Below, one piece after another: positions 7,403 through 38,819 of a DNA stretch of 64,000 nucleotides. The stretch comes from Nitzschia sp. pyKryTriq1. Lineage: Eukaryota > Bacillariophyta > Bacillariophyceae > Bacillariales > Bacillariaceae. The notes under the pieces are model-generated. The model saw only the letters and a program-made list of their open reading frames with translations, was not told the DNA's origin and searched no databases. The stretch is from the NCBI GenBank assembly GCA_956465555.1, contig OY101118.1, positions 3,121,751 to 3,185,750 on the forward strand, written 5' to 3'. Within the stretch, counting starts at the first letter, position 1. Each line of letters starts with the position of its first letter. The position numbers were made by a program, and so were the translations under genes.

Positions 7403-10400
7403 TCAGGCAGCCATCATTCCCTTTTGTAGTTCATCAATAATCTCTTCCTCTTCCAAAGATACTCTCGCCTTGCGCAACAACTCATGAATACTCTTGCAGG
7501 ATTGGCAATCATGAATGATTTCAACCAAGCGATTGGCAAATTCATCCACTTTCAGATCGTCCAAGCTCAGAACAAAATCGTTCGAGAGCTGGTCCATCAA
7601 GGCAAAATAGACAATCATGGGACGAAGTGCATCGCGGAAATCTTCAATGCTAAGTGTAGCAGTCGTAGCAGTGCTTCGTAGAAGTGCCGATCCACTGGCC
7701 GAGCTACTACCGTCACCGCCAACGACGCCAGCAAGCTCGAGCATCTCGTCTTCGTCCACAATATCCCAGTCGGCAAAGCCACCTGGGCGACGACGCTTCG
7801 CACCAGCAGTATTTCGGCTCGTGGTACAGCCACTACCTTCGACTCCCAAAGCATGCCGACGTCCGGCACAGTTCAATAGTCCACGCAAGAAATAGTCTCG
7901 ACCGACGACCCATCTTCGTTTCGGGTGCGGTCGTTCATCTTCTTCCGAGCCAGCCGTGCTGGCTGCCGCGGCGCCGTAGTCGTCCTTGGTGTTGTGAAAT
8001 AGGATGCAAGTCAAACAAGCCATTGCCGAAGAATCCGCCATGCCACGATGCAACAGGGATTGGTTTCGCTTATTGTAGTCGTCCGCGTGAGTCATGGCAC
8101 TCGCGGCCAAGAATCCTGCACTGAGATTCCGAGCATGTTGGGCCATTTCAGGCGCATCGACTTGGGCGTCTTTTTCAAACATGTCGGCCATCAACAGTTG
8201 ATGATACACCAGCTGAGAGTTGGAGACGAGCGATCCGCCTCCGCAGTCGGCATTGAGAGGCTCTCCGTAGGCCATTCGGAGCAAAAGAAAGCGAACATCG
8301 TGCAAGATATTCCAGAGCATCGATTTGGGCCGTGCTCCAAGGAGATTCGATACTGCCGTTTGATGCTCGGTTAAAGCTACATCCACGGCTACAAGAGGAA
8401 CCTTGGAGCTCCGGGAGGATACCAATGGCAAAATCACGTTGCAGTTCACGCGGGAGTTTCGTAGGCTCGCTCCTTCCCACTCGCTCTTGGGTGCCTTGGG
8501 ATGGTTTCGATCGGCTTGTCGGGCACGATTGTGACAGCTGAAATGAATCGCATTGCCGGCAGAGACGGTTGTTGTAAAATAGGTAGCTCGGCGGCTAGTA
8601 GCCAGGCTGGACAAGGACGAACGAGCCGTATCCTTGAGTTCTTCAGCGACAGCTCGAGCGGCAGGGTACCATTCGTTGGCGGCATGAGAATCCGATAAGG
8701 AACTTGGCATACTCGGTGGAAGAGCTGTTAGAAGAGAAGTGCCATCAATACAGCTTCTTCCTCCGCACTGGCTCAATGGAACAGAGACCTTCTTCACGTA
8801 GGCATACAGACCCAAAAGTTCAGATGGCTGTAGAGTTCGGCCTTCCTGGCAGACGGCGCAAGTCAGACCAGTCTCATCTTCCATGTCTTCCATCTCGGCC
8901 ATCCAGGCGGGTTTGGCGGGAGGCTCCTCTTCCTTCTTGGGAGAGGAATCCTTCTTTCGACGTTTGGAGGGTGGCGGTTGAGACGACGAAGCCTCAGAGT
9001 TTTGAAAGAAGCCAAAGACGGGGGCCAAAAGCGAAGCGGCAGTCCCTCGAACTCCTGAAGAATTGTTCTCATCGGATGTTTTGTTCGGACTGGAAGCCGC
9101 AGCGGCCTTGTTGGGACCAAACGGCCCCATGCTTACCAAGGCCTTGCTTCTTCGTTCCATGGCAATTTCCTTCTTGCGATTCCTTGTCTTTCGACGGATA
9201 TCCTTGACTTCGGTAGCGACTGGAGAGCCATCGGAGGCCAGCTCGTCCAACAAGGTTTCAGCGACCAAACCCAATCCCTTCATCGTGACTCGAGCGCTCG
9301 TGCTGTCCGAGGTCGACTCGATCCAATGGCATACCTCGATCAACGACTGTTGCTTGCTGGATTTAAAGGTGCCAACGAACGATTGAGTTGCCTTGTGCTG
9401 CTTGCTCAAGCCAATCAGCATGTCAAAGGCCGGCTTCAAACCAGATCTCTGCATGTAGATTCGCCATTGCTTTTCCAGTTGGCTTTTCTTCTTCGAAGTG
9501 AGTTGATCTCCTTTGACCCAAAGTGACGAGCTCCAACAAGGCGGCTCGGATGGGCAGTTCTGCATGACAAATGACGCGACGCGGTCCAAATAGCCACATT
9601 GGATGAGCTCGGTTCGCAACGAATGGCAGACTTCGTTCGCTGGTAGACTTGACGAAGCGTGGACAAATGTGGCCATCAAGACTTGAGAATAGTCTTCGCA
9701 TTCCAGCTCGTACTCGCCCAAGCGCTGGAGGTCGACATGCCGGACGAATTCCATGGCGAGCTCCTTCGACAGGGCGGATTGACCATACGTGAGATACGGA
9801 AGAAGTTTGGCAATGACATTCCGCAACGGACGGCTCAGAGACGACGTCTCAATAGCGCTCAAAAGTAATCGAAGAGTCGAAGCATCTTGCTCGGCATCTG
9901 CACGTGCCTCGTCAGTAGTCGCATCCTTTTTGACCGCAGTTCCATTAGACGAGACCATGTCGGACGCCATAATCTCAATGAGCTCTTGGAGTCCCTTGGC
10001 CGTCGGGTTACTTTCTGAAAGTCCCTCATCCTCGAGACCGTGGAGGACGTCCAGGAGAAGACGTAGCAAGATCGTTGGTGCTCGAGATTGTAGGAGAAGT
10101 TTTCGATTGCTCGCCAACTTGGCACAACAAGACAACAACGATAATCCTGGATAGGGCGAGGAGGTTTTGAAGTGGCCACGAGAGAGATTTTCCCCATGTC
10201 CGATATCGTCCCGACGAATCTTGCGCAACGTATCGTTGATGTTGCGTTCCACTGATTTCAATAGACAGTAAACGCCTCGCCCTTCCGTGACAAAACGAGT
10301 GATTCCGAATTCCTTTTCCATAATCTTTTCCAGTTGTTCCGGGTCCGCCATTTCCGAAGGAGCTTCGGGGTCTTCCAGAGTGGTAACTGTATCTTCCGTG

Positions 10401-13400
10401 GCTTCTCCATCGACACCCGTCAGACGATACGTGACGACCATCGGAGGGAGCGCCGCCAAGGGCGTGTCTTCATTAATGGCGTTGCCATTGGCATCAATCG
10501 AGCCACCAGGACCAACCCCGGGGCCTCCCAGAGCACCGGAACTGCTAAAGATCATACTGAGTCCCGATCTGGATTGAAGAAGAGATCGGGCCACGCCGCG
10601 ACCACCTCCCAAGAAGGAGGAAAGGGCCGAACTGGCGGCCGAGGAGGCACCCGGGCCACCGCCGCCACCAGTCGATGTTTGAATCAAGTGTCGCTTCCAG
10701 ACGACTTGATGGACGACTCGAAGCTTTAGATCGACATCGATAATCTTGTTAGCCACCAACAATTCCAGCAATTCTGCCGAATCGGACATTTGCAAATCAT
10801 CGGCGATTTGTTGTCTCAAGTCACGGACAGTAGGTTCCGTATTGCCATCTTTTCGCAACATGTTGAGCGAGATGGGGTTCTTGGAGAGCGAGCCTCGGAA
10901 AAAGTCTTCTTGCGTAGGAGCGCGTCGAAGAAGAATCTTGGCATTCACGGGCTTCTTGGGCGGCTTGACAATGTTCAAGACACTGTGCATGAGATCATGT
11001 TCCGCTCGAATCGGGAGAGATGATGCCTGCTGCGTCTGCTGTTGCTGTTTTTGCTTTTGGAATCGAGCTAGCATGACGGGATGTTGAACGGCCAACACTT
11101 GCATACAGGCTCGTAGATACACCATTCTGCGTTCCGCCAATTGTTCCGCTTGATTTCCTTGGGCCGTAGCTCCTCCGGCAGAAACAAAAGAAGATCCAGC
11201 CATCGCGTCTTCCTGAGAATTCCTCCGTTCTTCTTCCTCGGCTTCCCTATTGTGCAAGTCCAACAAGCCTTGTCTAAAATCATCTTCATCTTCTTCGTCC
11301 TCTGGATGGTGACGCATCACGATATCATGTTCTCCATCCTCATCCTCGTCGTGATCGAATTCACAATCTTCGTCATCTTCACTGTTGCTATCAATCTCCT
11401 CATCGTCGTCGTCATCGTCCTCGTCTCCATTCTTGCCTTCGCCACCGGCACCGCCCTCGTGAGGATTGCGATGATTCGCTTCGCCACGAGCATCTTCGTC
11501 GACGTCGTCATCGTCCGCATGGTGAGGATTCTCGACGACTTCCACATCTTGTTCGTGGACATGTTCCTCGTCTTCGCGATGTTCTCCTTCTTCCACTTCA
11601 TTGTCCTCCTCATCATTGTCAGGGTCGTCATCGTCATCACCCTCATCATTGTCGTCGTCATCTTGGTGGTCTTCCTCATCATCATCCTCGTCTTCGTGAT
11701 CCGAATGATGATGATGATGTTCTTGTTCCGAATGTTCACGCTCCTCAGAATGATGAAGATGTCCTTCCACGTCCTCGTCGTCATCTTCATCATCGTCTGA
11801 ATGAACAATGATTACTTCATCATCATTATCGTCGTCGTCCTCGGCTAGATCATCCACATCCATGCGAGCAGCAGCATCTGCCACCGCCGCTGCCGCCGCA
11901 CTCCGTGATCTTTCTGCCGAAAAGGCACCACCACCAGCACCACCACGTCGTCGCGCAAACATGCGTGGTCGACCGCCTGCTGAACCAGCAGCAGAGTCGT
12001 TATTATTGTCATTAGTACTGTTTGTAGTGTTGGTGTTGGTGTTGGTGTTGGATCGACGAGCAAAGAGTTCCAAAGCTTGTTGGGCAGCCGCAGAAAGATC
12101 GCTGCTTCCAGTACCGCCAATTCCAGTACCACTAGGTCCATTGGGACCATAAATGGTGGAAAAAATGCGAGCGACGGCAGCGGCCGCCGCCGATCGATCG
12201 GTAGCAGCACCCGATGAAGATGCATTATTGGTAGAGGCGGAAGAAGGTCGTCCTGGATTATTGGTAATACTCGCATTGTTACCATTGTTGTTGCGATTCG
12301 GAGAAGTAGCTTCGACCAAGGCTTGCAAGGCTGCTGTGGTGGCATCCAAAGAAGCACTCAAAGAAGCAGTGGCAGCAGAGGAAGAGGGAGAGGACAAAGA
12401 CGAAGGTGGAAAGGTATCCCACAGTCTCGTAATAATAGGTCTCTTGTTACTACTACCACCACTACTACTACTACTACTCGTGGTAGTAATAGTAGCAGAT
12501 CGTAGTTTCGTAGGAACAGTATGTGGATCAATGAGATGTTTGAGGATATGCAGTACATCTTTTTGAGCAGGTACGGCCAGGGCATGTTTTTGTTGCTTCC
12601 AAACATGATGCGTGGCAATCAAACAGGCCAACGGTGAGAGAGTATTAGTATATGATGATGCATTTGTATTCTCTTTGGCAGCAACACTGGCTATGATACT
12701 GGCAGTAGCAGTAGCAGTGACAGTGACATTCTCTTCTTTCCACAATAAGGAATGCGCCTTGGCCAAGGAATCGGAATCCGTTCCCACCAGCAGCAAGTGA
12801 TGAAGTAAATCCACCAGTGCCGCCGACACGACACTTCCTCCACCAACAAGAGTGGAAGACGAGTCTTGGGGGGCACGTTTGACCAACGTCGAACAAATCC
12901 AAGAGAGACCCATGCGTTTGTGTCTCAAAAAGGCAAGGATCAGTGGTGTACTATTACTCGTGGTGGCGCTCACAGCAGCAGCAGCGTCCGTTGTCGTCGT
13001 CTTGGAGACTTTGGATGCTGGCGTTCCTGGGGTAATATCATCCTTCTCCTTCTCCTTCGCTTCTTCTTGTCCTTTTCCTTTGCCGTCGTCGTCTTCATTC
13101 GCAGGAGTAGTATTAGTAATAGACAAGAGCAGAATGTGTTTCATCAAGGCCACCAAGGAGACTGTCGTGACGTCCGCAGAAGTACTGCTTCCATGACCTT
13201 TATTCATCATATTCATTCTCAAATGATAATGCAAGACTTGTAGGACAGACCAAAGGGAATGTTGCTGGTTGAGCGGACATCCCATGGCCAGAATCCGGCA
13301 AGCGACTTGACGCTCCGGTCCGGACGGAGATTGCAAGCTTCGAAAGAGCCAATGCAAGTAGATGGGATGCTGATGCTGATGCTGCTGAGTATTTTTGTCG

Positions 13401-13825
13401 GTATTGGAGGGGGACGGAGGCTTGTCCATGGTCGCAGTATCTGTCCGACGTCGCTTTTTCGTTTTTCGACTGGTACTTTTCTTGCTGCTGGTGCTGCTAC
13501 TGCTGATGCTGCTGGCATTGTTAGTACTCGTACTACATGATGGGTGCCGCCGCCAACTTGTCTCGAGCCAGCGAGCAATCCGCAGGGCAGCATCAAAGGT
13601 TTGAAGCGCATCCTTGACAATCGCATCGGCCATGCCCGGTTTCTGAACCAATCCTTCCAAGAGAAACAAACTCCGGGGTCCTCGAATAGTGTGGGTTTGA
13701 TGCTGATTATGAGTATGCTGCTGAGTATTATGATGAGCGTGATGTGGACGCTGCTGAGTAATAGGACTGCTGCGTCCGCCAGCCTTTGCCGGCGACGGAG
13801 AGGAGTGCGGGTTTACCATGATCAT
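7403..13825 (-). CDS. UBR4: UBR4/BIG-type E3 ligase, free-standing C-terminal (catalytic) part, 2,140 aa
   Basis: This matches the C-terminal portion of the UBR4 (animals)/BIG (plants) ligase and nothing of its N-terminal portion. In order it has: a segment near DNA 13370 matching the armadillo-like stretch around YLHWLFRSLQSP; Ser/Ala/Asn-rich linkers; an acidic, His-rich stretch (DNA about 11300–11860); the conserved TQEDFFRG–ELLELLVANKIIDVDL–VVTYRLTGVDGEATED block (about 10370–10920); the KEIAMERRSKAL helix; then the hemiRING (DNA about 8430–8866) with C-A-V-C, H-F-S-C and V-N-C. After it come the WEGASLRNSR and F-L-L-L-R-M helices and the helical C-terminus. The hemiRING is the known E2-binding zinc fold of UBR4. 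ATG codons are at 13825 and 13819. The in-frame poly-Leu stretch upstream opens only with TTG and is taken as 5'UTR. The frame is uninterrupted for 6.4 kb. The UBR box and N-terminal part lie on the opposite strand at 24115–38682. Confidence 0.9.
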   Translation of the reverse strand: MIMVNPHSSPSPAKAGGRSSPITQQRPHHAHHNTQQHTHNQHQTHTIRGPRSLFLLEGLVQKPGMADAIVKDALQTFDAALRIARWLETSWRRHPSCSTSTNNASSISSSSTSSKKSTSRKTKKRRRTDTATMDKPPSPSNTDKNTQQHQHQHPIYLHWLFRSLQSPSGPERQVACRILAMGCPLNQQHSLWSVLQVLHYHLRMNMMNKGHGSSTSADVTTVSLVALMKHILLLSITNTTPANEDDDGKGKGQEEAKEKEKDDITPGTPASKVSKTTTTDAAAAVSATTSNSTPLILAFLRHKRMGLSWICSTLVKRAPQDSSSTLVGGGSVVSAALVDLLHHLLLVGTDSDSLAKAHSLLWKEENVTVTATATASIIASVAAKENTNASSYTNTLSPLACLIATHHVWKQQKHALAVPAQKDVLHILKHLIDPHTVPTKLRSATITTTSSSSSSGGSSNKRPIITRLWDTFPPSSLSSPSSSAATASLSASLDATTAALQALVEATSPNRNNNGNNASITNNPGRPSSASTNNASSSGAATDRSAAAAAVARIFSTIYGPNGPSGTGIGGTGSSDLSAAAQQALELFARRSNTNTNTNTTNSTNDNNNDSAAGSAGGRPRMFARRRGGAGGGAFSAERSRSAAAAAVADAAARMDVDDLAEDDDDNDDEVIIVHSDDDEDDDEDVEGHLHHSEEREHSEQEHHHHHSDHEDEDDDEEDHQDDDDNDEGDDDDDPDNDEEDNEVEEGEHREDEEHVHEQDVEVVENPHHADDDDVDEDARGEANHRNPHEGGAGGEGKNGDEDDDDDDEEIDSNSEDDEDCEFDHDEDEDGEHDIVMRHHPEDEEDEDDFRQGLLDLHNREAEEEERRNSQEDAMAGSSFVSAGGATAQGNQAEQLAERRMVYLRACMQVLAVQHPVMLARFQKQKQQQQTQQASSLPIRAEHDLMHSVLNIVKPPKKPVNAKILLRRAPTQEDFFRGSLSKNPISLNMLRKDGNTEPTVRDLRQQIADDLQMSDSAELLELLVANKIIDVDLKLRVVHQVVWKRHLIQTSTGGGGGPGASSAASSALSSFLGGGRGVARSLLQSRSGLSMIFSSSGALGGPGVGPGGSIDANGNAINEDTPLAALPPMVVTYRLTGVDGEATEDTVTTLEDPEAPSEMADPEQLEKIMEKEFGITRFVTEGRGVYCLLKSVERNINDTLRKIRRDDIGHGENLSRGHFKTSSPYPGLSLLSCCAKLASNRKLLLQSRAPTILLRLLLDVLHGLEDEGLSESNPTAKGLQELIEIMASDMVSSNGTAVKKDATTDEARADAEQDASTLRLLLSAIETSSLSRPLRNVIAKLLPYLTYGQSALSKELAMEFVRHVDLQRLGEYELECEDYSQVLMATFVHASSSLPANEVCHSLRTELIQCGYLDRVASFVMQNCPSEPPCWSSSLWVKGDQLTSKKKSQLEKQWRIYMQRSGLKPAFDMLIGLSKQHKATQSFVGTFKSSKQQSLIEVCHWIESTSDSTSARVTMKGLGLVAETLLDELASDGSPVATEVKDIRRKTRNRKKEIAMERRSKALVSMGPFGPNKAAAASSPNKTSDENNSSGVRGTAASLLAPVFGFFQNSEASSSQPPPSKRRKKDSSPKKEEEPPAKPAWMAEMEDMEDETGLTCAVCQEGRTLQPSELLGLYAYVKKVSVPLSQCGGRSCIDGTSLLTALPPSMPSSLSDSHAANEWYPAARAVAEELKDTARSSLSSLATSRRATYFTTTVSAGNAIHFSCHNRARQADRNHPKAPKSEWEGASLRNSRVNCNVILPLVSSRSSKVPLVAVDVALTEHQTAVSNLLGARPKSMLWNILHDVRFLLLRMAYGEPLNADCGGGSLVSNSQLVYHQLLMADMFEKDAQVDAPEMAQHARNLSAGFLAASAMTHADDYNKRNQSLLHRGMADSSAMACLTCILFHNTKDDYGAAAASTAGSEEDERPHPKRRWVVGRDYFLRGLLNCAGRRHALGVEGSGCTTSRNTAGAKRRRPGGFADWDIVDEDEMLELAGVVGGDGSSSASGSALLRSTATTATLSIEDFRDALRPMIVYFALMDQLSNDFVLSLDDLKVDEFANRLVEIIHDCQSCKSIHELLRKARVSLEEEEIIDELQKGMMAA
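11300..11860 (-). repeat. Acidic/His-rich low-complexity insert in UBR4 C-part
   Basis: About 190 residues are almost wholly Asp, Glu and His, encoded by imperfect GAC/GAT/GAA/CAT triplets. The stretch separates the armadillo-like start from the conserved catalytic-side block. I do not recall such an insert at this place in animal or plant family members. It may be a flexible linker or a histone/basic-protein contact. Confidence 0.7.
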
Positions 13826-14190
13826 GTACGGTACTCTAGTCAATGGATTTGCTATGAAAGTGACAGTTGGCAATGGCAATAGCAATAGCAATAGCAACAG
13901 CAACAGCAACAGGAACAACTCGCAGCAAGAATGGAAAAAAGGAATCAAGTGCTGCTGCCGCCGCCGCGTCTTCCTTCCTTGTTGCGGGTTTGTTCGTTTT
14001 ATTGCGGTGATTGGCTTGATGCGATTCTTTATGATGCTCCGGCCGGCTGTTCGCTCGTCGTCACGGTGCTTGGCCTGTAAATCCGTAGTAGACAGCAGTA
14101 CCAGCGTAGAATGCTACGTAAATTATGTACTGAATTTTTAACGACTCAAATGATCAACAAAAAGCTGCCTCTGGACCATCCATTTTCGCA
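13826..14190. other. Short intergenic; candidate inversion breakpoint zone
   Basis: This contains the presumed 5'UTR of the UBR4 C-part gene, with a CAA/CAG/CTA-type triplet run at about 13870–13917, and the 3' end of the next minus-strand gene. If UBR4 was split by an inversion, one breakpoint should lie here. I see no obvious repeat shared with the matching zone at 38683–38819. Confidence 0.35.
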
Positions 14191-15078
14191 TCAATCGCCG
14201 ACGCCATTGATCATGATCATCTTCTCCTGTCGCCTTGATTGCAAGGAAGCAAAAGGAGTACCTTTATTTCTTGCGTACCGGTAGTCATCCACAAGCTTCT
14301 CCATCGTCCTAGCTAAGAGGATGGGATTCACAGTGTACTCTAGCAGCAAGGGCAGCATCATTTCACGAACACTTTCGACAAGCACAGTGTGCATGTTCTT
14401 GGAGGATGATTCTGCTTGACTCTGCTCAGATGCTTTGGCGGGGAGGGCCGCGACGTTTGCTTCGGTTGCTGGGGAAATGTTGTTTGAAGTAGCCTTTTCT
14501 GGAGAGACTACTGCTGCAACACCAGTACTTATAGTAATTGCTTTGATGATGCGGTGCCGGAAGAGTGCCTGCCGACCTCTGAGCTGGGGGAATCTTGGAA
14601 CGGCCCGCCTGGCTTGTGGCTTTTCAGCCTTGCTGCCACGAGTCCCTAGTTTGATGAATGTTTCGCGGGGACCAAAATGGGAGACCTCAACTTCATCTTG
14701 CAACTGATGTTCTTTTAAGAAATTGTACCATTGCTCTTTCGAGCTCTCCATCCGGTCGCCCTTGCCTCCCTTGAGCTGAATAAGCCCCACGATTTGGAGG
14801 AAGTCGTTGTAGGCTTTGATCGTCAGGCCCAAAACAGAGAAAAGATATTCTCCTTCAGATATTGTCAACCCCAACCCCACTGTAGTATCCATGGATTTCT
14901 CTGGTGACTTGGATTGCTCAATGGGCGCCTTGATGGCATACCAATGAGCGTCCGCGTCGGCAGCAACACGAAGAAAGTCCACAAACGCAGCAATAATTAC
15001 AGAATTCCCACCCATTTCTGAGGGTGGGACAGGATTTGAGCCCCGTTGCGACCGGGTAGTCCTTCGAGGGGTCTCCAT
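14191..15078 (-). CDS. Hypothetical protein, 295 aa
   Basis: No recognised family. It opens with a basic METPRRTTRSQRG start, then a mixed globular-looking part to about residue 150, a basic patch (RGSKAEKPQARRAVPR), an Ala/Ser-rich linker, and a hydrophobic helix-forming end (MMLPLLLEYTVNPILL). A second minus-strand frame runs at 14918–15289 and overlaps the start. Its composition also looks protein-like, so an upstream exon or a different start is possible. It sits between the UBR4 C-part and the divergent nucleoporin gene. Confidence 0.5.
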   Translation of the reverse strand: METPRRTTRSQRGSNPVPPSEMGGNSVIIAAFVDFLRVAADADAHWYAIKAPIEQSKSPEKSMDTTVGLGLTISEGEYLFSVLGLTIKAYNDFLQIVGLIQLKGGKGDRMESSKEQWYNFLKEHQLQDEVEVSHFGPRETFIKLGTRGSKAEKPQARRAVPRFPQLRGRQALFRHRIIKAITISTGVAAVVSPEKATSNNISPATEANVAALPAKASEQSQAESSSKNMHTVLVESVREMMLPLLLEYTVNPILLARTMEKLVDDYRYARNKGTPFASLQSRRQEKMIMINGVGD

Positions 15079-17515: not shown

Positions 17516-17646
17516 ATATACACCGGGTAGAGAACACGTGAAAGTAGTACGAGGGCAGCATGTACGTACGTAGACTTGTAAGCACAATTGATGATTGAAT
17601 TATAGGGTCTACTAATGGACTCGAGTAGAATCTAGACTCTACTCTA

Positions 17647-24114: not shown

Positions 24115-27100
24115 ATGGCGGGAACCAAACGCCGTCGAGGAGCTGCGCCCAACAAGTCGTCAAGCGGAGCCGGTGCCTCGGGCAGTGGCGGGGGTGGCGG
24201 GGGAACTACCGGGTATGTACAACTTGAATGGTCTAATAGTGTAATGTGCTGCGGTGCTTTGTTCAGTATATACTTCATTCCAACAACGCGCATGGAACAA
24301 CATTCTTGCACAAACGCTAGCTTTTCTCTCACCCACTGTTCTCTCTTCTCCCCCCGCTCTTTTGAAAATTCCAATGCTATTCGATGCAGCTCTTCGTCTA
24401 AAAAGCAACAAACCAGCACGAAAAGCAAGGCGACCGCGGAGGCAGCAGCAGCAGCAGCAGCAGCAGCAGCCAAGACTTCGAATACTACCACCACCAACAG
24501 CAGCAGCAATGTCAGTATTATTTGGAAGATTGTGCAACGAGTAACGATGGAAATGGCAAGTTCGACATCTCGTTCTGCCGCTGCCATCTCGCAGAGTGGC
24601 GTAACATCAGTGGAGGCATCTGGCGGCGCCTCTTCCAGCAGCAGCGGCGGCAAAAGTAACAAGACATCACTCGAAGGAGCTTTGGATTATCAATGGCTGG
24701 CCGTGGCGACTCAACTCATCAATCGACTATTGAAGCGGATCAAAGAAGTACAAGAAGAAAAAGAACAACGTGATGACGATGACGGCGATGAATATGACGC
24801 TCTCTTGCTTGTTTTGAGTGCCTTGTGCGATGGTATTTCACGCATTTTGGTCAGTGACAAACCCAAATTGGAAAAGGCCATGCATCAAACGTCCTCTCGA
24901 TCCTCGGTCGGACGAGCCTTGTTGTCGGCCACCATGGGAGCCTTGCAGTGCATGAATGGTGTTGTGAATTCTTCTTCTTCAAGGTCAGGGAATAATACTA
25001 TTGTTTTGACTTCCGGTACGGCAGCTCTGGATCGATTGGTTCACTTGCAAGAATTCACGAATACTCATACTACAGAGGGAGATGCTGCTGCGGCTGCTCC
25101 TCCTCCTCCTGGTGCTGATGCTGATGCTGATGCTGGTGGGACTTCTCTTTTTGTGGATTGGACGTCACACCAAGATCTTCTTCAAGAGGCTTGTTCTAAG
25201 ATCTCGACCACGACACAAGAGGAAGAATGTGTCACTTGCTTGGAACAAGCTCAAAAACAAGAAGGAGGATCATCAGCGTCTACTTCTTCTCCGACTGCTG
25301 CTGCGGCTGCGGCTGCGGCTGATTCTTCGACAACCGCCAAGAAACGAGCGCCGCGCAATACACGCCGCAAGTCAACTACCACTACCAAAAAGACAGGAGC
25401 AGCTTCGCCGCTAGAACTGGCAGCACTATCGAAAGCCATGGAGGCTCTCTTAGAAGACAACAAAGATGATTCTATGGATGCTCGGATTGCCGTCAAACGA
25501 TGGGCCAGTATGGCCATTGTTTGGTATGCCAAGGGGACCCAACAACTTCTTCAAGGTGTCCATCATCTGGCTACAACTAGTAGTCCTTTCAATACACCCC
25601 ACGAACTGCTGCATCTACTCTGTCGACTTTTGGCCATTGTGGCCGAAGCCGGGACCAACGGTGGAGTACGACCTCCGGTAGGAGGCATGGATACGTACTT
25701 GAAAAGTTTGGCGTCGAATATTCACATGAATGCTACTTCTACTTCTGCGGTTGCTGCTTCCACCACCACCACCACTACTACCACTACTGCTGGTACCAGT
25801 GATGAAAATCAAGAAGCGGCACGAGCGGATATTCGAGATTGGACCGTGGTGGCCATTTTTGATATCTTGCAAATTCATCGACAGTGTCTCGAACAAACCG
25901 ATTCCAAGATTGTCAATGATACTGCTACCACCACTACTGCTACTACCATGGATTCTTCTTTGTCTTTTTCTAATAACACCATCAACATTGCACCAAACCT
26001 GGGTGGTATTCTTTCCTCTCTTTGTCGGGCCGCCGCCATGAGTGTCTCTCAATCCGGATATTCCGAACAAAGTCAATGGATCCGGGCTCTTACGGGAATC
26101 ACCACGGCCCTTTGTTTTCAAATCATGAGCCGCAGCAATACCAATTCTACTGCTATTGCCTTGGATTGTCGATTGTTTCAATTTGCTGTCAATAATTTGG
26201 TTGAGACTCTTCGACAACTCGAGCACCAAGCCCCTTCATCGAGTTCGACCTATGGTCATAGTATGGGTAATCCTCCTTCATTGCAACGAGAACAAGCTAT
26301 CTTGGAACAGCAATTCAATCTATCACTTCCATTGCCACTTCCGACACCTACTTTCCGTCATGACGAAGAAGACGAAGACGAAGACGAAGCTGACGATGCC
26401 ATGGTGGTGGATGACAACAACAGCAACAAGAGGAGTACCTTTGCAGGAATGTGGCCTCATCAATCAGAATTTACCAATGAGGATGCCTTGTCTCTCATCT
26501 TGAGGAGCATTATTACTCCCAGTCCCAAAGAGCACGATGATGACGACGACGTCGACGACCTAGCCCAAGATGATGATGGTGGTGGTGGGGCAGCGTCCAA
26601 GCTCATCTCTCTATTGACCGAATTAACAAGACGAGCATACGATACCAGGGTCCAACCCATGGCCACATTATCTCGAGAGAATGAAGATGACAACAACAGC
26701 AATGAAGCGGAAGTCGAAGATCTGGATTCCAAACCCAAGGCCAAGGGAGGCCGCAAGCGATCCGCGAGAGCCGCCAGTGGTGGACGCAAGACCAAAAAGT
26801 TTGCCGGCGCCAAGGAATCAGCCACAATGGAAAGTGGCGGCGACGCCGACTACCATAGGATCTCTGGCCAACGCGCCATTCTAGCCAAGGACGCGTTGAT
26901 CGCCCTTCGTCACTGCCTTACTATGCAAACTATTCCCACCTCGGGTCTTGCTCGATCGATTCGACCTCATGGACTCAAGATGAACCACATCCATGAATTG
27001 ATTGGTTTGGGGGATTTGTTGGACAAGGTCCTCGTCAAGACACGCTTGGGCATGTCCCGATTCGCATCGACGTCGTTGTCGTCGACTTCCACGGCTGCAG

Positions 27101-30100
27101 CGCGACTTCCCGAAGCCACCACGAGCGATCCTCTGTCCCATGCGAGTGTACACAGAAACGAGTTCTCTGGTCACGAAAAGAATCTATGGGCGGCGCACAT
27201 GACCATGTGTCAAGTTCTCGGACGAGGCCAAGCTAGCTACGATGAAACGGCACGTTTGATCCTCACGGAAACGGAGCGAAAGAGCATCGTTCAATCGATG
27301 TGGAGTACTGGTGCTGGTGGCGGGGGTCGTACGAATACCGGGTGGCCCTTGTCTCTTCCGGCAGCCCACCATGCCTTTTTGATTGCCAACTTCACTGACC
27401 ACACTATTGGGCCCGAACATTGCTCTGCGGAACAGCTCCTGGTCAAGCAATGTATCAAGTCGATTGGCAAAGAGTTGCAGAGTATGGAAGACCTCGAGCC
27501 CCGGCCGAAAGAGAGAAATTGTGTGTTTCTCGATGACGGGATTTTGCTCTCTTACAAGGACGCCAGGACGTTCCTTTTGGCTTTTAGTCGACTGCCAGCG
27601 GAGCAGCAGCGCAAGAGCTTGGAGGATCTGACGTCGGTGATACTTCCCGTTTTGAAAGGCATTCAAGGCGACCAGGCCAAGGAAGACATGTTGGCTTCCA
27701 ATGAAGAAGCGTCTGCCTTTGTGGCTCGCGTGTTGGTGGTCTGCTCGGCCATGTTGAGTCTCGTGGCGTACGGTCGGCCTCTCCGACAAGCGTTGTTTTC
27801 GCACGCCGGTACGGTGAATATCCAATTGCCTAGCTTCTACAGCTCGAGCGAATGGTACTATTGTGAGCGCTCCTACATGGGACTTTTCGGAGACTGGGAA
27901 TGCACCATTGTCCCGGATATGGAAATTCTTTCCCCGAATTTAGTCCTCTTGAAAGACAAGACCATCACGCAGATCAAGACAATGCTGGAAGTCGCTTTTG
28001 CTCTTGGATTTGAAACCGCCCGTAGCGATCAATGCTATCTGCTGTTTGCGGCATGGAACGGCATCGGGAAGCTTTACAGCGAAGGTGGTACGGAAAGGCT
28101 CAAACCAAGCGATTCGACATCGCTCCAGATCAACGCTGACAACTACCCCAAGCGAATTCTTCAACTTCGAGATGACGTGTGTTTGATCTACAACAGTGGA
28201 CTCGGTTATTCGCTCGACGGACTGAGAACCATGTCGTCGATCCGCCTGCGGTCAAATCTGAAGAGTACACTCCATCGTGCCAACATCTTGATGGGAAGAC
28301 TACTAGAGACGGCAGCCACTGATGAGACACCATCCATGGCGTTTTTCAGTCTCCTGGCGTCTCTGCCGGCCTACATTTCGGCGAGCATCGCGGCTCACAC
28401 GAAACCCGGAAATGATCACTTCTCTACAATCTTGGCGAAAACAAACCCACGGCGAGCTAGACGCGCCCGAGGATATTCCTCGGAAAGCGATCCGAATTCG
28501 GACCTGGAGTCAGTGGAAACAGATGGAGCTGGTTATGACAGCGATGTCCACATGGACGCCGTGTCACGGCTGAGAGAATGCTGTGATGCTTTTGGGGCCG
28601 CGCCGATTCATCCAGATTGGCTGGACGTGAGCTGCTCTTTCCAAGAAGGCATTCGTAGCTCGGATGCTGTTGACAATGCCGAGACCGCTATGCGTATGCT
28701 AAATAAATTGATCAATACAGCATTCGATCAATACCAGAAGAATTTCCTTGAAGCTCTCAAAGCCTACAAGTCTGGGTCGGAGGAAGGGGACAAAGCTCTT
28801 GAGCTTTGTTTCGACCTACTGCCGTGGAACACACATGACCCTGTCTTTCCTTCATCTCTGGGACCTGGGGCTTATTCCGACGAGCGAGATTGGAAGGAGG
28901 ATATTAGTGCACTATGTGATCTTCCTGAGGGTCTCCTCGATCTTGCGATGGATGACTCGTTTATCAAGAACACCGAAGCCGCGAAAGAGTCCTGGTGTCC
29001 GAATGCCTCGCAACGGCTCTCCGGAAAACTTCGTGATCGAAAACGTCCACTCAGTGGATGGGAGACGTGTGTCCCCGAACTGAGAGCGGGAGGCGAATGG
29101 GAGCTCCTGCTTGCCGAATCTTTGACCTTGGCTTGCATAGATGTGAAACGTTACCCCGACGAAAGTCATGGCGATTCCTTTGTATCTGATGACGACTCTC
29201 ACGCTCATCAATCAGGCTCCTCAAGAGATGTGGACTTGGACGAGGGAGCGATGGAAAAAGGTCACAGCGCTATGAAACTCGCACAAATATGGCATTCAAT
29301 CATGTGGTCTGCAACAAATCATCTGCTGCCAGCTGCCGCGCTTCTCCGCATGGGGATTAACAAAGTGGGGCGCAAACCGCATCCGTTTAGCTCGAACGAC
29401 AACAACCAAGATCCGTACGACGTGGCTCCACTCAGCTTTTCGGAGCCTCTAGGAAACGTCGTAGCATACACATCTCAGCTTGTCAAGATCACAACCCAAG
29501 AAACCATGTCCATACTGACGAGACTATCTACCAGTGGCGACGACTCAATCTCTACCGCTTGCCATGCAATTGCATCTCACTTGTTCATAGACACGAAATC
29601 CTTTGTTGACATGGAGGGTCTTGATTCTATTCGTCTTGCTTTGACTGGTCTCAAAAGAACGCTTGCTTTGTCCGACAGCTTTGCGAAGAAGGCCGCACCT
29701 CTAGAAGTTTTCCCATTCATTGCGGAGCGTCTAACCCTCGTTTTGGAAGACAATGGACATGATTCGACTACTGACAAGGAATCTCGAGACAACGAGCAAG
29801 ACTTTGGAAGACTGTTTTCGTTCTTCGGGGCGTCTAGTGTCCACACAGTCGACACTATTGTTGGGAACTCGATAAATGCCTTCGAAATCTTGAAAGGCAA
29901 GGATGACCCATCAACAAGCAGAGATGTACCATTCAGCTGGGCAAATCGGGATGGTCACCTCGAAGCCCTAGAAGATCTTGTATCGATTCTTTGCGGGAAA
30001 CCTGTCAAGGCGAACGATCGAAGCAGAGCTTGCGCTGCCGTCCTTCTGTCCAAATTGATAGCCAGCGAGCGAGGGCGCACGGAAACAGCCCCGTCTACTC

Positions 30101-33100
30101 GTATCCTTGCTGCGATTACGACTGCCTTTGATTCAATCAAAAAAGTACAAATCAGGGGTCTCATTTTGAATGACTTGTGTTGCACGGACGGACAATATGT
30201 ATCTCCGTACTCTTCTCACAGAACTGAACTGTCACATCTGCTGCAGTACATGATGAGCGCGAATTTCAAGCAAGGGAGATTGGTTCACGACGTTCTAGTC
30301 GAGTCTTTTCCGAGATGGCCGCGTTCTCTCGAAAACCAAAATCTAAGGCCGGCGTTCGATGCCTTATTATCGTTCGGCTGTCGGTTCAATTCTTTGAACG
30401 AGATAGCGGGCAAGATTCTCATGCTTGCCAGCCAAAATATGTCGGACGACTCCGACGATAGCGTTGTGGATCTGGACCTGGTAACAACATTCTTCACATT
30501 CGTGAAGCAACTGAAAGATGCGTTGTCAAACGAAGAAACACCAGAAAAAGACGTCCAAAGCTCTGAAAGAAACGAGGGCGATATTAAACCGTCCAGGTCG
30601 CCAAAATCCATTTCTCCGCTAGGAAGAAGGTGCTCTTTTGTCGAGAAGACAGGCTACCATGGGCAGCACTGGTACAATTGCTACACGTGTGGACTTGTAT
30701 GGGAAAAGGGTTGCTGTACTCTCTGTGCATTGGTCTGTCACAAAGGACACGACGTGGCGTACTCCCGCTATAGTTCCTTCTTTTGCGACTGTGCAGCTGA
30801 AGATGGAACAGTTTCGTCTCAAAATCGTGTTTCCTGCCGTTGTATGATCCAGCTCCCAGCCGGCGATGTAAATAAACTCTTCGAGTCAGAGAGCTCGGAC
30901 ATCAACATTGGAGAACCAAAGTCAGAAGAGAAACAGACTTGTACCGCGACAAAGGAGCTTCGCTTTCCTTCACTGAGCATTGAAATCGTCCACAATTCGT
31001 TCAGCGATGTGGCAAGGCTTGCCCTTGCAGATCTTTCCAAAGCTTTGTCCGCAGAGCCATGGTTCATGGCTCTTTTCAATCTATTGAAAGACCAGTTCAG
31101 ACATTGGAAAAGCTCCAAGCCGTCTGTTTCTGACATTTTGCCAGTTCTAGCTGACGGGCCTCTGCAGGCCAATATCAGACCAACACACCGCGTGTCACCA
31201 GTGATCCTTCGGAGCAAACTGCGCGGCCGACACGCCAAGCCGCTTGATTTGAAGAATCTCTCTGCAAAGACGATGTTGCCAATTCGATCTGTGAAAGGTT
31301 TTCAGACAAAGATGTCGTCCGATACGTCGTCGAACGCACAGCTGCTTGCGAAACTCGCGAGAAATGATATTTCGAGATGCAATTTGGTGTCCGATTCTAG
31401 AGGAAGGATGGTGCTAGCGGAGCCCTGCTCGCTTCTTTTCTGCAGCGCTGTTCCTGCCGCTGCGACCCGCTACACCGGCAGGGCCCATGAGAGCCCGCTC
31501 ACACGACAGCAGATGTGTATACTTGGAACTTCGACGATTGCATTCAACATTGTTGGAATGCGTCTATGTTCCGACAACGAGAGGCACCTGCTCGTATGGG
31601 GCGTCTCTGACGCGTGTGTCGTGGTTGTGAAACCTCATTGGGACGGCGTAGAGACAAAAATCGATCTTGTACTTAATCTTGATCAGAACGATGGTGATTC
31701 GGACCATATCGTCAAATGCGAATTCGTCTCAGGCTCCCAGACGAACCTCGTCGTCGGCTGTGGACGATATGTTCGCGTCTTCGACATATCGCGGACAAAA
31801 GACAAGCGTGCGAATGCTGTTGTGGCCTACAACTTGGGCTTTGAAGCTTCACTACGAGATATTGCCCTTGTACCGCTTGCCATTTCTGACAAAAAAGAAA
31901 TCGATCCCGAAATTCTGCTGAGGCAAGAGCAGGAAACGATATCCAGAATGTTCATGCTCCTAGAAAACGGGCGTCTGCACTCGGTCGATCTCAAGGCGGA
32001 CTCTGAAGGACGTATGGAATCTCCTTCTGATCAACCTTGCGAGCTCAGTGGATCAGTTTCCCTGCCAACCTCAGGAGTCAGACCACGCACAGGTTCGCCA
32101 CCTGGAGTTGCCGGCTCGTCAGCGAAATCGCTTGGCGAGGCTTCGAGGATATTCTATCTGAGACAGAGCCGAATGCTTCTTTACAAATGTGTTTCGTCTT
32201 GCGTCCTTGCATTGATGCTTGACCCCGGTGGCCAAGTTGAAGGCTCTTTTGAGCTTATTCCTCATGTTATCTCTTCTGACATCTTATGGAACGGTATTGA
32301 CGGCCATTCGATTGTCGGTCCGTACACTCATTGGACTGAGCTAGGAGTCGTTTACAGCGACAACGGCATATATTTTCGAGTAGCCTGCATCGGCAGGTCC
32401 TCGAGGACGAATCAACCAAAAATGATATGCATCGAGTTCAACGAGAGTGATGTCCGTGTGAAGGAAATCATGTGGTCGGCCGCCAGCTCCATCGGTCTTA
32501 GCCTCAGTCTATCTTTTGAGGGTCTCTCCGCATTTTCGCTACCATTTGTTGGCGATGCCAGAAAAGAGTACCGCTCTTTTGGTGAACGAACGTTTCTTTG
32601 CACAACAACTTCTGCCGGGTCACTTTTATTTTTTGGAGAGGAGGTTGTCGACACGTTAGAATCTGCCGACGCTGAAGCCAGCGAACGAGGATCATTGTCC
32701 CTCGTTTCTTTATCAGGAGTCACGCCGCTTCAAGTCGAAAAGCCTGTATTTCCGCTAACAATTTTCGAAAAGCTGAAAAACGTTAGTGATTCCGAGGAGG
32801 TTGTGTTCGCGGGCGAAGGCACGGGGTGGTAAGTTATGGATCGTCCAATATTGTTGGTTACACCTATCCAATATTTTTGGTTACACCTACATTCATGATC
32901 ATCTGACCTCTTTCCGAAGTGACCCAGCTGAACTAAAATCTAGACTACTGAGGGACCGCAGCTCGTCTCTCATCTGTCATCGGAGAGAAGGTTGTACGCT
33001 GTCGATTTCACTTCGGTCCGGTAGGCAAGAAAAATCAAGCGGGGGCCCTGGCGATTCTGCAGACAAGATATCAGATCGGAGCCATACGATTGTGGCTCTG

Positions 33101-36100
33101 AGGGTCCTCGTTGGCTCGACAGTCAGCCAAATACCGTCGAAAATAACCATTCAAGGACGACCTATCGATCTCACGCCCAGGATGAAGAAATGGTATAGCA
33201 TGCCTTTAACGAACGAAGAAATTGCTCTCGGAGTACGCACTGGGATGATCTCAGTTGGGATAGGCTCACCATTCGACGCTGGAAGCAGCAGTAGTGTGGA
33301 CGCAATTGAAGTGTATGTAACAGAGAGAGACGAGGTAAATGACTGGCTTCAAAGATCGTATATCAAGAGCAATGAAAAGCACGAAGAAGAGAGCAATCAG
33401 GTCGCGAGACGAAATATTTTGACGTCGTGTGAAGGGGACGACGACGATGACGACGAAAACACCAGAGGATTACTTTCAAGTGTCCGCGCCTTGTCGTTTC
33501 TTTGTGAGCTATGTCCCGAATCGGCTCTCAATGGCGTGGACAGTCAACGCCTCTTTCTGCGCGATCTTGTCGAGGATACAGCCTTCACGAGAAACAAACT
33601 CGTCGGCGAAACGGTTCGTGGACTTGTGACAAAACTCGAACCGAACGACAGACTTCGAAGCTCGCTCTACGACGAGAGTATTTTGCGCGGCTGGATGAAA
33701 ACGTTGGCAGACGCTAAACGCCTTCAGGATGAGTCTACCACAAGTGTCGCTAACTCGAAGGCAAGGTGGGAGGCTACCCGCACAATCCTTCGGGACAGCC
33801 TCAATGCCGTTTCCAAAATATCACGAGAGCGACCGATGAACTACCTCCAGTGCATGGGAAATGTTTCTGAGACAGATGATTCATCGGGATCAATTGCCCT
33901 GGACGCTAGTAGATTGATTCTAGAAGGCGCACGCCGTTCTTTACCATGCAGCGACCTTATCGACGGTCCCGGAGGAATCATTGAGCTGTGCTTGACCGAG
34001 ATTGCTATTGGAAATAGTACGGAATATGGGGAGCATCTGGCCAAATTCGACATTGTCAAGAAATTCTTGCAATCGACCAATCGCGACGTCGCCGAGGTTG
34101 CCTGTCGAGCCGTCTCGGCATTCTGCGAGAGGCAGGGTCTTGCGAATCAAGACGAGGACGGCTTATTTGTGATACTGGAAAGATCTCGACTAATTGCATA
34201 CAGGTGTGATAGTTGTGGGCTTTGCCCATTGAAGGATATCAAATATACGTATCTCGAGGAAGACATTGAGTAAGTTTCATCGTCCGGTTTTTGAGCGAGT
34301 GCCGAATGAAAATCACTAACTTAGTTCTTGCACTTTTTAATGAAAGCCTCTGCAAATCATGTTTCGACATGGCAGAGACGTTTGCCGGAAAAAATAAGTT
34401 CGACGCGGACGTCGAGGTGTCTATTGACGGCCGTACTGTTGGTGCCGAAAGCAAACTTACTTGTGCCCAGCTGCGGCAAATGCAAGCTGTTCCACTAGCC
34501 AAGATGGATATCATTGCTGCTCGTCAGAGCTTCGAGCTCTCCGATGAAGCTATGGATGAAGACGAAGAACTACAGAAAGCGCTTCGTTTGAGTCTGGGCG
34601 AGAATGCGTCGGAATATGGTCAGGAAACTTATGAAAACTTTGTTTCGCATCTGTTCGCTAGCACCTTGGAGGTATTATCGGCTATGCTGAAAAGCTCCCA
34701 ACCAAGCTCTAAACTTGCCCCAGTGCTTCGCTTGCTACTTGATCTTATTCGAAACTCCAGCAATGCAAGCTCACAGAATGACTGGGCGAAGCGTTTTGCA
34801 AGAGAGGTGTCACAAGGAATCGCTATCTTATTGAATCTTCATGATTCAGATGGTGGAAGGCATCCAGGCTCGATTTGGTCAATCATTTCATGCCTCCGTT
34901 CGATGCAGCTTCTTCTGTTCCCCGATGTGGAGGATTCTGCTTCTTTCTTTGAGCAGCTCCATTCTGACGACGACACTCGATCGAGGACGCATCCTGACGT
35001 CGTTTGTGATACCCATCAGATCCCTGCTGTAAGAAGGCGAAGCGCAAAAGGAAAAAATAAGGATCGCCGATTCTATGTTTGTGGCAAAGAGAGAGGACAA
35101 AGATGCAACTTCTTCAAATGGGCCGACGATGTAGAGTCGAAATCTCGTGGCAAATCACGAATTTCCTCCAGCTTAAAAGACATTGTGCGCACATACCTAT
35201 GGTATCAACCAAACCCAAGTGAGATCTCGTTGAATATCGTTCTCTGTGAAATGCTAGAAAACGAAATGTTCAATGACAACGAAGACGACGTGGACTTGAC
35301 GTCGTCTCATAGTGGTCATCCCCCTGACACAAGAAAGGGCCAAGGACGGCTACCAAGCCAATATGGGAAGGGTGAAATGGAGAGAGATATCGAAGACGGT
35401 GTTTTCTGCAGCCGCGAGAAGCTTCAAGATGTAATTCTCGCGAGTCGAGACGAGAATGCGGCAGAGAAGAAGGTAGAGCCTCTCATTGATCTTCAAGGAT
35501 CTGGCGAGAGCAAGAGCTGCCTTCTGGAAGCCTGTCTCGGCTTGCTTGCCCTGGTTGCAGACTATAAATCGCAAGGAATAACCCGGTGGTTCTCATTGCT
35601 TTGCGAAATCGATATCTCCGCCGCCAAATCACCTGAAGTGCGAAGTCTTGCACGCAAGGTTCTGAAAGTATTGTGCGGCAAGAAACGAGTAATGTATCAT
35701 TCCATCAGGGACCATTTCTCATTTGGATTTCAGCTACAGGCGCTGTACAAGAACGCTGCGCCGATGCTTGAAGCTGGTCTTTTGGTCAGCGAAAGAACTC
35801 GCGTCTGCAGTCCTCAATGGTCGACAACGAAGAAACTAGATTGGTCAACGCTGACATACGGTGAATTGATTGGCGTCGACGATCTGATCACGGGGGCTGA
35901 CTGCCCGCAGGGAAAGTTGCGAAAAGTTGGAAAGGTCCTAGACGATTTATGGAGTGTCATAAAGAATGGTGGAGAAAGCTGGAGGCGGTTTTGTGGCCAC
36001 GTCTCACTCCCACCGTCACATCGGAACGGACCGAAGGCAGACACCGGAACCTCCAGCGTCGAGCAAAAAATGCTGGAGTCGCAACCGGTAGTCGCTCTTT

Positions 36101-38682
36101 TCTGGGTCGCATGTTCTCTTTCGGGTGTCCACCAAATCAAGGCCCTTCGATTGCTGGACGCAGCTCTCACTACCCCGGGAGAAAAAGTCATGTCGGAAAC
36201 TGGGTCGATTATCGACGAGGATGTTTTATCTACGATAAGCGGCGCTCGTCCGCTAGCCCCAGAAACACTCCTACTGACTGGAGACAAAAGGTTGTCGATC
36301 GACGACCTGGCAGCTTTTACTTTCAATTTTGTGTTCGGGGGCAAAATTGCTGATCTCCGGAAGGTTGGCTATAACCTCTGCGCCAAGATTGTGCCGCACC
36401 TGTCTGTCCCTGAGCGAGGTCTTCTATTCGAGAAGATACTGTCGTCCAGATACTTAGACGCTGCAAAGAATGGAAAGGGGTGCATTGAATACCTGAATCT
36501 CCTCCAAGTCTTCGCACAGAGTCTTGATCCTACTACCGTCCCTTTGCGGCAGTATGGCGATCTTGTGCTTGATTCGTTTATCCACCAGATTGACTCTGTG
36601 AAGTACGACAGATCTAACGGTGAATGGCTGGTTTCCGAGGCCGGAAATGGGGCATCAGTCAAAAAGAAGTTCGATCTATCTGAGTGCCTTTACTGTCTGC
36701 AGACGAATCTAACGACATCTCTCAAGGAGGGCCAGAAATCGCAGGAAAGACGAGATGCTATTTCCACCACCCGGTCGCCCAGACGATCCATTTCTAGCAC
36801 AGCTATTTCGAAGCGAGCGTCGTCCAAGATCTCTTCTCGTCCGCCAACGAAGTGGCATCCAGACCAAGTGAGCACTTTTTCTAGATACAGACTGGACACT
36901 TTGAAATTTGCATCGTCGAGTGACGAATTCAGCTCCTTCTTCGCTTTGAGACACCGGGTGGTAATGAGTGACATCTCCCTCACGGTGAATGACCCACGAG
37001 GGCGATTCATCAAAAATGTTTCTGTTTACTACTCTTCTAGGCCCGCAAGCGACCCTGCTGAACTAAAAGCGGATGATTACGCTTTCCAGTGGCAAAAATG
37101 CGCCACGTTGAGCCTTGCGCGAGGAGCTTCACGAGCGAGTGCAAGTATTCCACATCCGGTAGCGGCGGCCAATCTGAAAATCGAGTACACCGATTTCTAT
37201 GAGCGTCCAGGAGGATCCAAGGCTTCAGATGGATCGCTTCTGGTGCATTGTCCACGGTGTACACGAGGTGAGAATTCATCACTCCTTTCATCGGAATAGC
37301 GTGTTCTTGGCTTCAGCTCACCATGTCTTACATCGTCTCCACTCGTAGTTGTCACGAATGCCCATGGAGTGTGTGGAAATTGCGGAGAAGTTGCTTTCCA
37401 ATGCCGCAAATGCCGCCATATCAATTACGATCGGCTTGATGCTTTTCTCTGCGTCGAGTGTGGGTATTGTGCCAGCGGTACATTCTCCCTGGAAGTAACT
37501 GCTGCGGTCGCCTCAAACGCGATTGCAATCATGAACGATAAAGACTGCGAAAGCGCCATTAGGATGCTGGGAGCCGTCAATACCATGCACGACGAAGTCA
37601 AGGCTACATTAATCCGTACTTTCCGGCAGATCGAGGAACGAAATCAAACATCGAAAACGGCCAATTCCTCCTTCGGTGACGATATGAACAGGGCTTTCAT
37701 GGGATTGCCACCTATTCTGGAAGGTAGCAAGACCAAGCACGCCGACTCCTACCTTGACCGACTTGATAAACCGGGCTCAATCATCAAGCTAGCCGCCCGC
37801 CCTGAGGCATCGCATGTCTCCAGTCGTGCCTCCGCTTCGGCAGATCGAACACGATCCCTTCTACGCCTAGCCAGGCAAATTAGGAATGAATCATCGGGCT
37901 CCGCTTGGGACCGGCGTCGTTCTGGTGACATGATTATTCGCCATCTTGGTAGGGGCATTGCAGTTGATAATATTGAAGATGAAAGAGACTTGATTGGGCT
38001 GCTTGAGGATGGAAACCTACTGGATTCTTCTGACGCTCTCACCCGAACTATTGCCAACGCTCGTGCTGGGCTGGGGGGCGCCTCAAGTGGACAACGTGAT
38101 CCTCCTGAGGACTCCAATACTGCAAATGCTTTGACAGAGAAGAAGGAACCGTCGGCCAAAGACACGCTGGAGGAGTGCCAGCGTCTACATTTGCTCATGC
38201 GAGAGGCACAGCGCGAGCGTTACGAGCTAAAACGCCGAATAGGCGCCTGGCAACGCTTGAACCAGGGTTCCCTGGTTGACCTTGGGTTTCCAATCCAAGA
38301 GGACGATCCGATTTCAACATGCCACTGCTCCGTATGTGGATCAACAGTCGCGTTCCACCTGCTGAGCCTCTGGTCTTCTCTTTTCACAGCGGGACCGTCG
38401 GAGGTTGACGTTGATGGAGACTTCTTGAGTCTTTTATTGTCTGAATCGACTTCAGTCGGAAAGACACTGTCAGACTGTATGCGTGAAGTCGTCAAAGACA
38501 TTGCCACTAAATCTGAAAGTGGTGCCAAGCTCGTATTGGAAGAAGTACGAAAACGGCTCACGGCTACAAATGATCCCGTGTCGGCCGAAATTCTTGGAAG
38601 CATCATGAGTGTAAAGGATCATTTCATGGAGGAGGAATATTCTGACCTTGCCCTGGAACTTTTGGCCAAGCATGCCGTATGA
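24115..38682 (+). CDS. UBR4: UBR4/BIG-type protein, N-terminal part without E3 module, about 4,713 aa, 5 exons
   Basis: I place exons at 24115–24212, 24390–32828, 32920–34269, 34347–37267 and 37349–38682. All introns are GT–AG (177, 91, 77 and 81 nt) and the joined frame is open. Domains in order: a low-complexity N-terminus; helical repeats; a UBR box at about residues 2110–2190 (DNA about 30632–30850) with the CSF…QHWYNCYTCGL…CTLCALVCHKGH…FFCDC ligands; a propeller-like region (about 2360–2800) with LLVWGVSDACVV; a family-specific beta domain (PSKITIQGR…KWYSMPLT) near 2900–2990; a ZZ-like finger at about 3272–3310 built across intron 3; a UIM-like helix near 3365; a GRF-like finger near 3513–3557; and the Cys-rich CGNCGE…QCRKCRHINYD block near 4263–4310 built across intron 4. 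It ends soon after CHCSVCGS. The hemiRING part is missing here and lies at 7403–13825 on the other strand. Confidence 0.9.
24213..24389 (+). other. Intron 1 of UBR4 N-part (177 nt, frame-neutral)
   Basis: It starts GTATGT and ends GATGCAG. Its length is a multiple of three and it has no in-frame stop, so retention would add about 59 residues without breaking the frame. The encoded stretch is hydrophobic and Cys-containing, unlike the Gly/Ser/Thr-rich flanks, which favours removal. Confidence 0.65.
30632..30850 (+). other. UBR box of the UBR4 N-part
   Basis: Cys/His spacing fits the N-degron-binding UBR zinc domain. The HWYNCYTCGL, CTLCALVCHKGHDV and YSSFFCDCAAED blocks are very like animal UBR4. 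A further C-R-C follows. It sits inside exon 2. Confidence 0.9.
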
Positions 38683-38819
38683 AAATGAGTACGAGTACTG
38701 AAACAGCGAATAGAATACGAAAGCAACTCCCCCAATGGACCCTACTAGCGATACCTTTACATAATAACTTATTTAACAAAGAGTACTATGAGTATTGCCA
38801 GAGTAGCTAGAGAATGTAT
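38683..38819. other. 137-nt spacer between UBR4 N-part and lipase stops
   Basis: Convergent 3' ends. Under the inversion model this is the second breakpoint zone. Confidence 0.4.

Follow-up and report, generated by a model that had tools for sequence, protein, structure and literature searches.

UBR4 is an essential ubiquitin ligase that occurs across eukaryotes with a conserved ring architecture, and in the human enzyme its UBL domain acts with the E2 at the hemiRING to lengthen K48 chains on the ubiquitin of substrates inside the ring (PMC7618180, available excerpt). The same excerpt describes a C-terminal dimer interface of armadillo repeats in human UBR4, where the C-terminal helix of KCMF1 lies under a lid (PMC7618180). 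Calmodulin binds a helix around Trp4105 and stabilizes the catalytic arm at its base, and Gly4301 serves as the hinge for movement of the arm (PMC12286842, available excerpt). In a stretch of 64,000 nucleotides from the diatom Nitzschia sp. pyKryTriq1 (contig OY101118.1, positions 3,121,751 to 3,185,750; hereafter the window), we found two genes on opposite strands that match different portions of this ligase and of its plant counterpart BIG. Their products are tentatively referred to as the N chain and the C chain.

The two intact frames and their complementary domains are established here. They are best explained, with a probability of roughly 0.6, by a real fission of a UBR4/BIG-type E4 ubiquitin ligase, simplest by way of an inversion of ~25 kb and with the two chains meeting in trans. 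We favor fission because the frames are open, the gene ends are clean, the matches to the family are complementary without overlap, no second copy of either half is present in the window, and the hemiRING ligands, the UBR box, and the UBL are retained. That the genes are expressed as two proteins which assemble in trans into an active enzyme, and that an inversion parted them, is what we infer from the sequence.

Two Intact Genes with Complementary Domains

In our gene model, the N-chain gene (24115..38682, plus strand) consists of four exons (24115-32828, 32920-34269, 34347-37267, and 37349-38682) and encodes 4772 aa. Its introns of 91, 77, and 81 nt all have GT-AG splice sites, its frame has no internal stop once they are removed, and the ATG at 24115 is preceded, 11 codons upstream, by a stop in the same frame. 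The C-chain gene (7403..13825, minus strand) is a single exon with an uninterrupted open frame of 2140 aa. Three in-frame stops are found upstream of its ATG at 13825, and the 96 open codons beyond the last stop contain no ATG. This 5′ region, with its in-frame stops and a poly-Leu-like frame, is unlike a UBR4 exon, and we counted it in favor of fission, as we did the GC content at third codon positions, which is 0.508 in both genes alike. Together, the two frames run over 6912 codons without a stop or frameshift; a sequence-only reading of this DNA had likewise called both frames intact. That reading had also assigned a UBR4/BIG ligase to two opposite-strand genes, one with the substrate-binding and one with the catalytic parts, which fits every domain match reported below. 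Searches by tblastn with both chains as queries found no second copy of either within the window, and a motif scan for plastid-type presequences found nothing.

When compared with human UBR4 and BIG, the matches of the two chains are complementary and do not overlap, so that the coverage expected of two halves of one enzyme was borne out. The last clear match of the N chain ends at human residue 3749 and the first clear match of the C chain starts at human residue 4335, with 585 residues between them.

The UBR box that had been placed in the plus-strand gene was recovered. It (30625..30843, N-chain aa ~2171-2243) matches BIG with 58.7 bits and the human UBR4 box with 60.5 bits, and also matches the human UBR-box structures 8j9r and 8j9q. 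With Pfam zf-UBR it scores 26.9 bits on a cropped piece (cut-off 25.2) and a sub-threshold 20.4 bits on the whole of exon 1. The UBR region aligns with BIG 1553-1631 and, as one stretch, with human UBR4 1658-2028. Toward the C-terminus, the equivalent of the second beta-sandwich (BS2/DOC2; 36874..37266) matches BIG 3323-3448 with 28.2 bits and human 3570-3664, and is followed by zinc fingers (37351..37563) that match BIG 3450-3520 with 55.2 bits and human 3671-3749. The BS2 equivalent closes exon 3 and its zinc fingers open exon 4.

The C chain matches Pfam E3_UbLigase_R4 (PF13764) with an E-value of 1.9e-97, and aligns with BIG 4122-4866 and human UBR4 4335-4991. Its UBL domain (10697..10990, minus strand, C-chain aa 946-1043) corresponds to BIG 4122-4225 (33.6 bits) and human 4335-4429 (21.1 bits), and is followed by the C-terminal helical arm with the predicted E2-binding region (9125..10468, minus strand, aa 1120-1567), which corresponds to BIG 4236-4645 and human 4437-4810. 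The hemiRING (8534..8896, minus strand, aa 1644-1764) had been predicted in the minus-strand gene, and its C2HC zinc site is fully preserved. Residues C1656, C1659, H1761, and C1764 align with human C4838, C4841, H4887, and C4890, the ligands described for human UBR4 (PMC10873205, available excerpt), and all four are invariant in a three-way alignment of the C chain, human UBR4, and BIG. The remainder, up to the C-terminus, is tentatively assigned to the UZI helical subdomain (7406..8533, minus strand), where the match extends to BIG 4866 and to position 659 of 809 in the PF13764 profile. The first part of UZI is well matched, and the last ~240 aa align poorly to human. Before the UBL lies an acidic low-complexity linker (11141..11842, minus strand, aa ~662-895), recognized from the sequence and a low-complexity scan; it is ~230 aa long and rich in Asp/Glu and His.

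Besides the domains above, several smaller features were identified in the N chain, all on the plus strand. A possible beta-propeller stretch (31303..31797, aa ~2397-2561) matches BIG 1759-1914 weakly, at 6.7 bits (i-Evalue 5.3), and in human falls inside the stretch 1658-2028; the propeller-like region suggested earlier is thus only faintly seen. A probable ZZ-type zinc finger (34196..34368) spans intron 2 (34270-34346) and scores 21.1 bits with Pfam ZZ, slightly under the cut-off of 21.4, with a cysteine spacing that fits by eye. A ubiquitin-interacting motif (UIM; 34555..34605) scores 21.7 bits with Pfam UIM on a cropped piece (cut-off 21) and 19.9 bits on the whole open reading frame (ORF). 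A GRF zinc ribbon (35002..35130) scores 43.9 bits with Pfam Zn_ribbon_GRF (cut-off 25.9) and also matches the NEIL3 GRF structure 7omk. The order inside the N chain is ZZ finger, UIM, and GRF zinc ribbon. A paper search found no literature that pairs UBR4 with “GRF zinc finger”.

The Break Between the Two Chains

The ends of both chains were compared with human 3867-4262 and BIG 3637-4045. The last 120 aa of the N chain, starting from CHCSVCGS (38320..38679, plus strand), have a proposed register at human ~3872-3983 by glocal score to a human plus BIG profile, which was equaled by 5 of 300 shuffles and by 2 of 168 windows of sequence, one of them its own overlapping window. Similarly, C-chain aa 155-209 (13199..13363, minus strand) have a proposed register at human ~4125-4175, equaled by 2 of 500 shuffles and 2 of 263 windows (one its own). 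These registers suggest that the N chain ends near the equivalent of human residue 3980, and that at most ~140 family residues (human ~3984-4125) lie between the placed ends, with no overlap seen. An abutment of the two parts thus appears likely, though it is unproven.

The break, at human ~3984-4125, coincides with the lid/calmodulin region of human UBR4. Neither the lid nor the calmodulin-binding helix is recognizable in either chain, and neither register for the start of the C chain is significant. No counterpart of human ~4026-4110 (a range inferred from the human sequence and Trp4105) can be recognized, and low-complexity sequence is found there. An amphipathic, basic, W-containing segment (TFDAALRIARWLETSWRR) is present, with a moment of 0.66, which is no proof of a calmodulin helix. 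The C-chain start (RGPRSLFLLE...) resembles human 3991-4026 (RCALSLFLMA...) by eye. The expected glocal register for this start was unsupported, as 98 of 500 shuffles and 35 of 257 windows did as well. The proposal that the parts abut with little missing or duplicated is consequently only partly confirmed and was put too strongly: no overlap is seen and the registers of the N-chain tail and C-chain aa 155-209 are favored, but the alignment across the junction is of borderline significance, the C-chain start is unsupported, and the lid/calmodulin segment is unrecognizable.

Two other explanations of the junction were rejected. A duplicated junction segment can be dismissed since exon 4 of the N-chain gene and the C chain share nothing (best BLASTP score 17.7 bits), and family sequence left over in the two spacers was not seen by eye in six-frame translations.

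Several results weigh against a fission at this point. With phmmer, neither the final 393 aa of the N chain nor the initial 947 aa of the C chain matched UBR4 up to an E-value of 10. A search with the human plus BIG profile reported 132 of 402 sequences, all of them shuffles at no more than 2.3 bits, and neither real chain. None of eight plain local alignments at the break was significant against human and BIG with 2000 shuffles each, the number of shuffles as good being 268 (human) and 1244 (BIG) for the N-chain tail, 122 and 371 for the C-chain start, 145 and 408 for C-chain aa 155-204, and 650 and 510 for C-chain aa 1-205. Out of 1000 shuffles, 90 equaled the resemblance of the C-chain start to human and 510 its resemblance to BIG. 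Statistical support for an exact abutment is weak. AlphaFold2 single-sequence models of the chain ends had mean predicted local distance difference test (pLDDT) values of 39.4 and 43.5 and were useless. Away from the break, N-chain aa 1-2158 have no match among solved structures, and the family's armadillo scaffold with N- and C-terminal dimer interfaces was not clearly recognized from these matches and models. Further, no relative with the same split was confirmed in four scans of viral and genome contigs, in collections that by design contain no eukaryotes.

Locus Layout and Alternative Explanations

The two genes had been called divergent, which is correct for their orientation; however, they are separated by 10,289 bases that carry at least two further genes with recognized domains, a nucleoporin-type gene and a flavin adenine dinucleotide (FAD) oxidoreductase gene, as well as unassigned frames. 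A shared bidirectional promoter was therefore rejected. The N-chain gene ends in a stop codon 137 bases short of a convergent lipase-like gene, and a spacer of 365 bases separates the start of the C-chain gene from the end of an unassigned frame on the minus strand. Inverting 13.9-38.7 kb places the end of the N-chain gene beside the start of the C-chain gene on the same strand. Because this single step reunites the gene ends, we propose one inversion of ~25 kb that interrupted an ancestral UBR4 gene at one of its breakpoints, which would explain the layout whether it took place in the organism or in the assembler.

The second possibility, an unbroken gene in the organism together with a block of ~25 kb (~13.9-38.7 kb) falsely inverted in the assembly, is the main rival to a real fission, and we consider it rather unlikely. 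The layout is the exact outcome of one such false inversion, and the junction is located at the right place in the family. A GT also follows the last N-chain codons (GCC|GTATGA at 38679), where an ancestral intron is possible, although the 14-kb gene model has only three short introns elsewhere. Against a false inversion, both breakpoints would need to hit small spacers (137 and 365 bases), and the plus-strand gene ends in a stop codon just before its convergent neighbor. The window contains no N runs, and no long inverted repeat joins the two places. Among 25 pairs, none was an inverted repeat of at least 20 nt joining the presumed breakpoint spacers (13826-14190 and 38683-38819); the nearest inverted pair (29 nt, 72%) has one arm at 38688 and the other at 13506-13534, inside the C-chain coding region.

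It is improbable that the two genes are degenerate or redundant relics, with a full-length UBR4 elsewhere in the genome and one or both partial copies dispensable. More than half of the C chain (53%, 1142 of 2140 aa, against 1240 of 4772 aa in the N chain) is low-complexity sequence, as might be the case in a relic, but the 6912 codons remain uninterrupted and the catalytic and zinc residues are kept. Moreover, the two sequences cover separate portions of the family, an outcome that partial copies arising independently would not be bound to show. Least probable of all is that the halves have parted functionally, the C chain acting as a free hemiRING-UBL ligase and the N chain as a separate adaptor or N-degron receptor. 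In its favor, neither chain has a recognizable lid or calmodulin helix, the elements by which human UBR4 holds KCMF1 and braces the base of the arm. Both halves keep their domains, however, including armadillo-type segments beside the break that would be expected to decay after parting.

The window DNA is eukaryotic, with long genes that have short GT-AG introns, a nucleoporin Nsp1-type gene, and a GC content of ~43-54%. The nucleoporin gene, of the Nsp1/NUP62 type, is located between the halves at 15770-17515 (Pfam Nsp1_C, 6.6e-12). The minus-strand frame just upstream of the C-chain gene (14191-15078, 295 aa) has no Pfam or solved-structure match; as a supplier of the missing segment it was rejected, having no match to UBR4 solved structures or Pfam, and 286 and 305 of 500 shuffles aligned as well as it did to human and BIG, respectively. 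A 600-aa frame at 52502-54304 has a C-terminal F5/8-type (discoidin-like) domain (1.9e-11).

Proposed Assembly of the Two Chains

With real fission as the preferred explanation, the receptor elements would stay with the N chain (UBR box, UIM, beta-sandwich and associated zinc fingers, and an internal ZZ resembling that of plant BIG), along with the greater part of the armadillo scaffold. The C chain would retain the final armadillo helices together with the UBL, the E2-binding region, and the hemiRING-UZI. By analogy with the human enzyme, the break would be located among the armadillo repeats where the catalytic arm has its base, close to the calmodulin/KCMF1 clamp. If both chains are expressed, the simplest working form is a trans assembly, in which they most likely bind each other non-covalently where the armadillo stack is broken. 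The reunited chains would then rebuild the ring-shaped ligase and lengthen the ubiquitin chains of substrates bound to the N chain.

A more specific version of fission, which we put forward only tentatively, is that the catalytic arm has become a separate dockable subunit and that the lid and calmodulin helix have been lost or have given way to low-complexity sequence. Whether the substrate ring is catalytically loaded would then depend on docking of the C chain, and a KCMF1/DI19-like or calmodulin clamp may act as glue. If so, an enzyme whose task is to destroy orphan subunits would itself depend obligately on two subunits.

No two-gene UBR4 turned up in a literature search that left most subscription papers and all preprints outside its reach. 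A natural two-gene UBR4 would show that the receptor ring and the catalytic arm can function when carried by different chains. It would also offer a natural site at which to divide a 570-kDa enzyme into manageable pieces, and a test of whether a clamp at the base of the arm is needed.

Comparison with Known UBR4/BIG Enzymes

The locus has the UBR box, BS2 with zinc fingers, UBL, and C2HC hemiRING of the UBR4/BIG family and, if the assembly is right, departs from it in lacking a single polypeptide. Arabidopsis BIG (AtUBR4) is the best solved-structure match of both chains, and its hemiRING is 39% identical to that of the C chain over the compared piece. An internal ZZ domain is reported for AtUBR4 (PMC7618180, available excerpt), similar to the probable ZZ finger here (21.1 bits, cut-off 21.4). 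Unlike the two genes in Nitzschia, BIG is a single chain of 5141 residues (9qt9); the UIM and the GRF zinc ribbon of the N chain may be further differences.

Human UBR4, which forms the SIFI complex with KCMF1 and calmodulin, shows the same succession of UBR box, BS2 and its zinc fingers, UBL, E2-binding arm, and hemiRING, but in one chain of 5183 residues instead of two genes on opposite strands. It also differs in having a lid and a calmodulin helix near Trp4105 (PMC12286842), which were not recognized here. As described in the excerpt of PMC7618180, human UBR4 has no internal ZZ, and the human ZZ sits in KCMF1 instead.

The UBR4 of Caenorhabditis elegans is similarly matched over the UBR box and the C-terminal region. 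It is a single chain, in contrast to the two genes here, and according to the same excerpt its complex lacks calmodulin (PMC7618180), which provides a precedent for a change at the clamp near the break.

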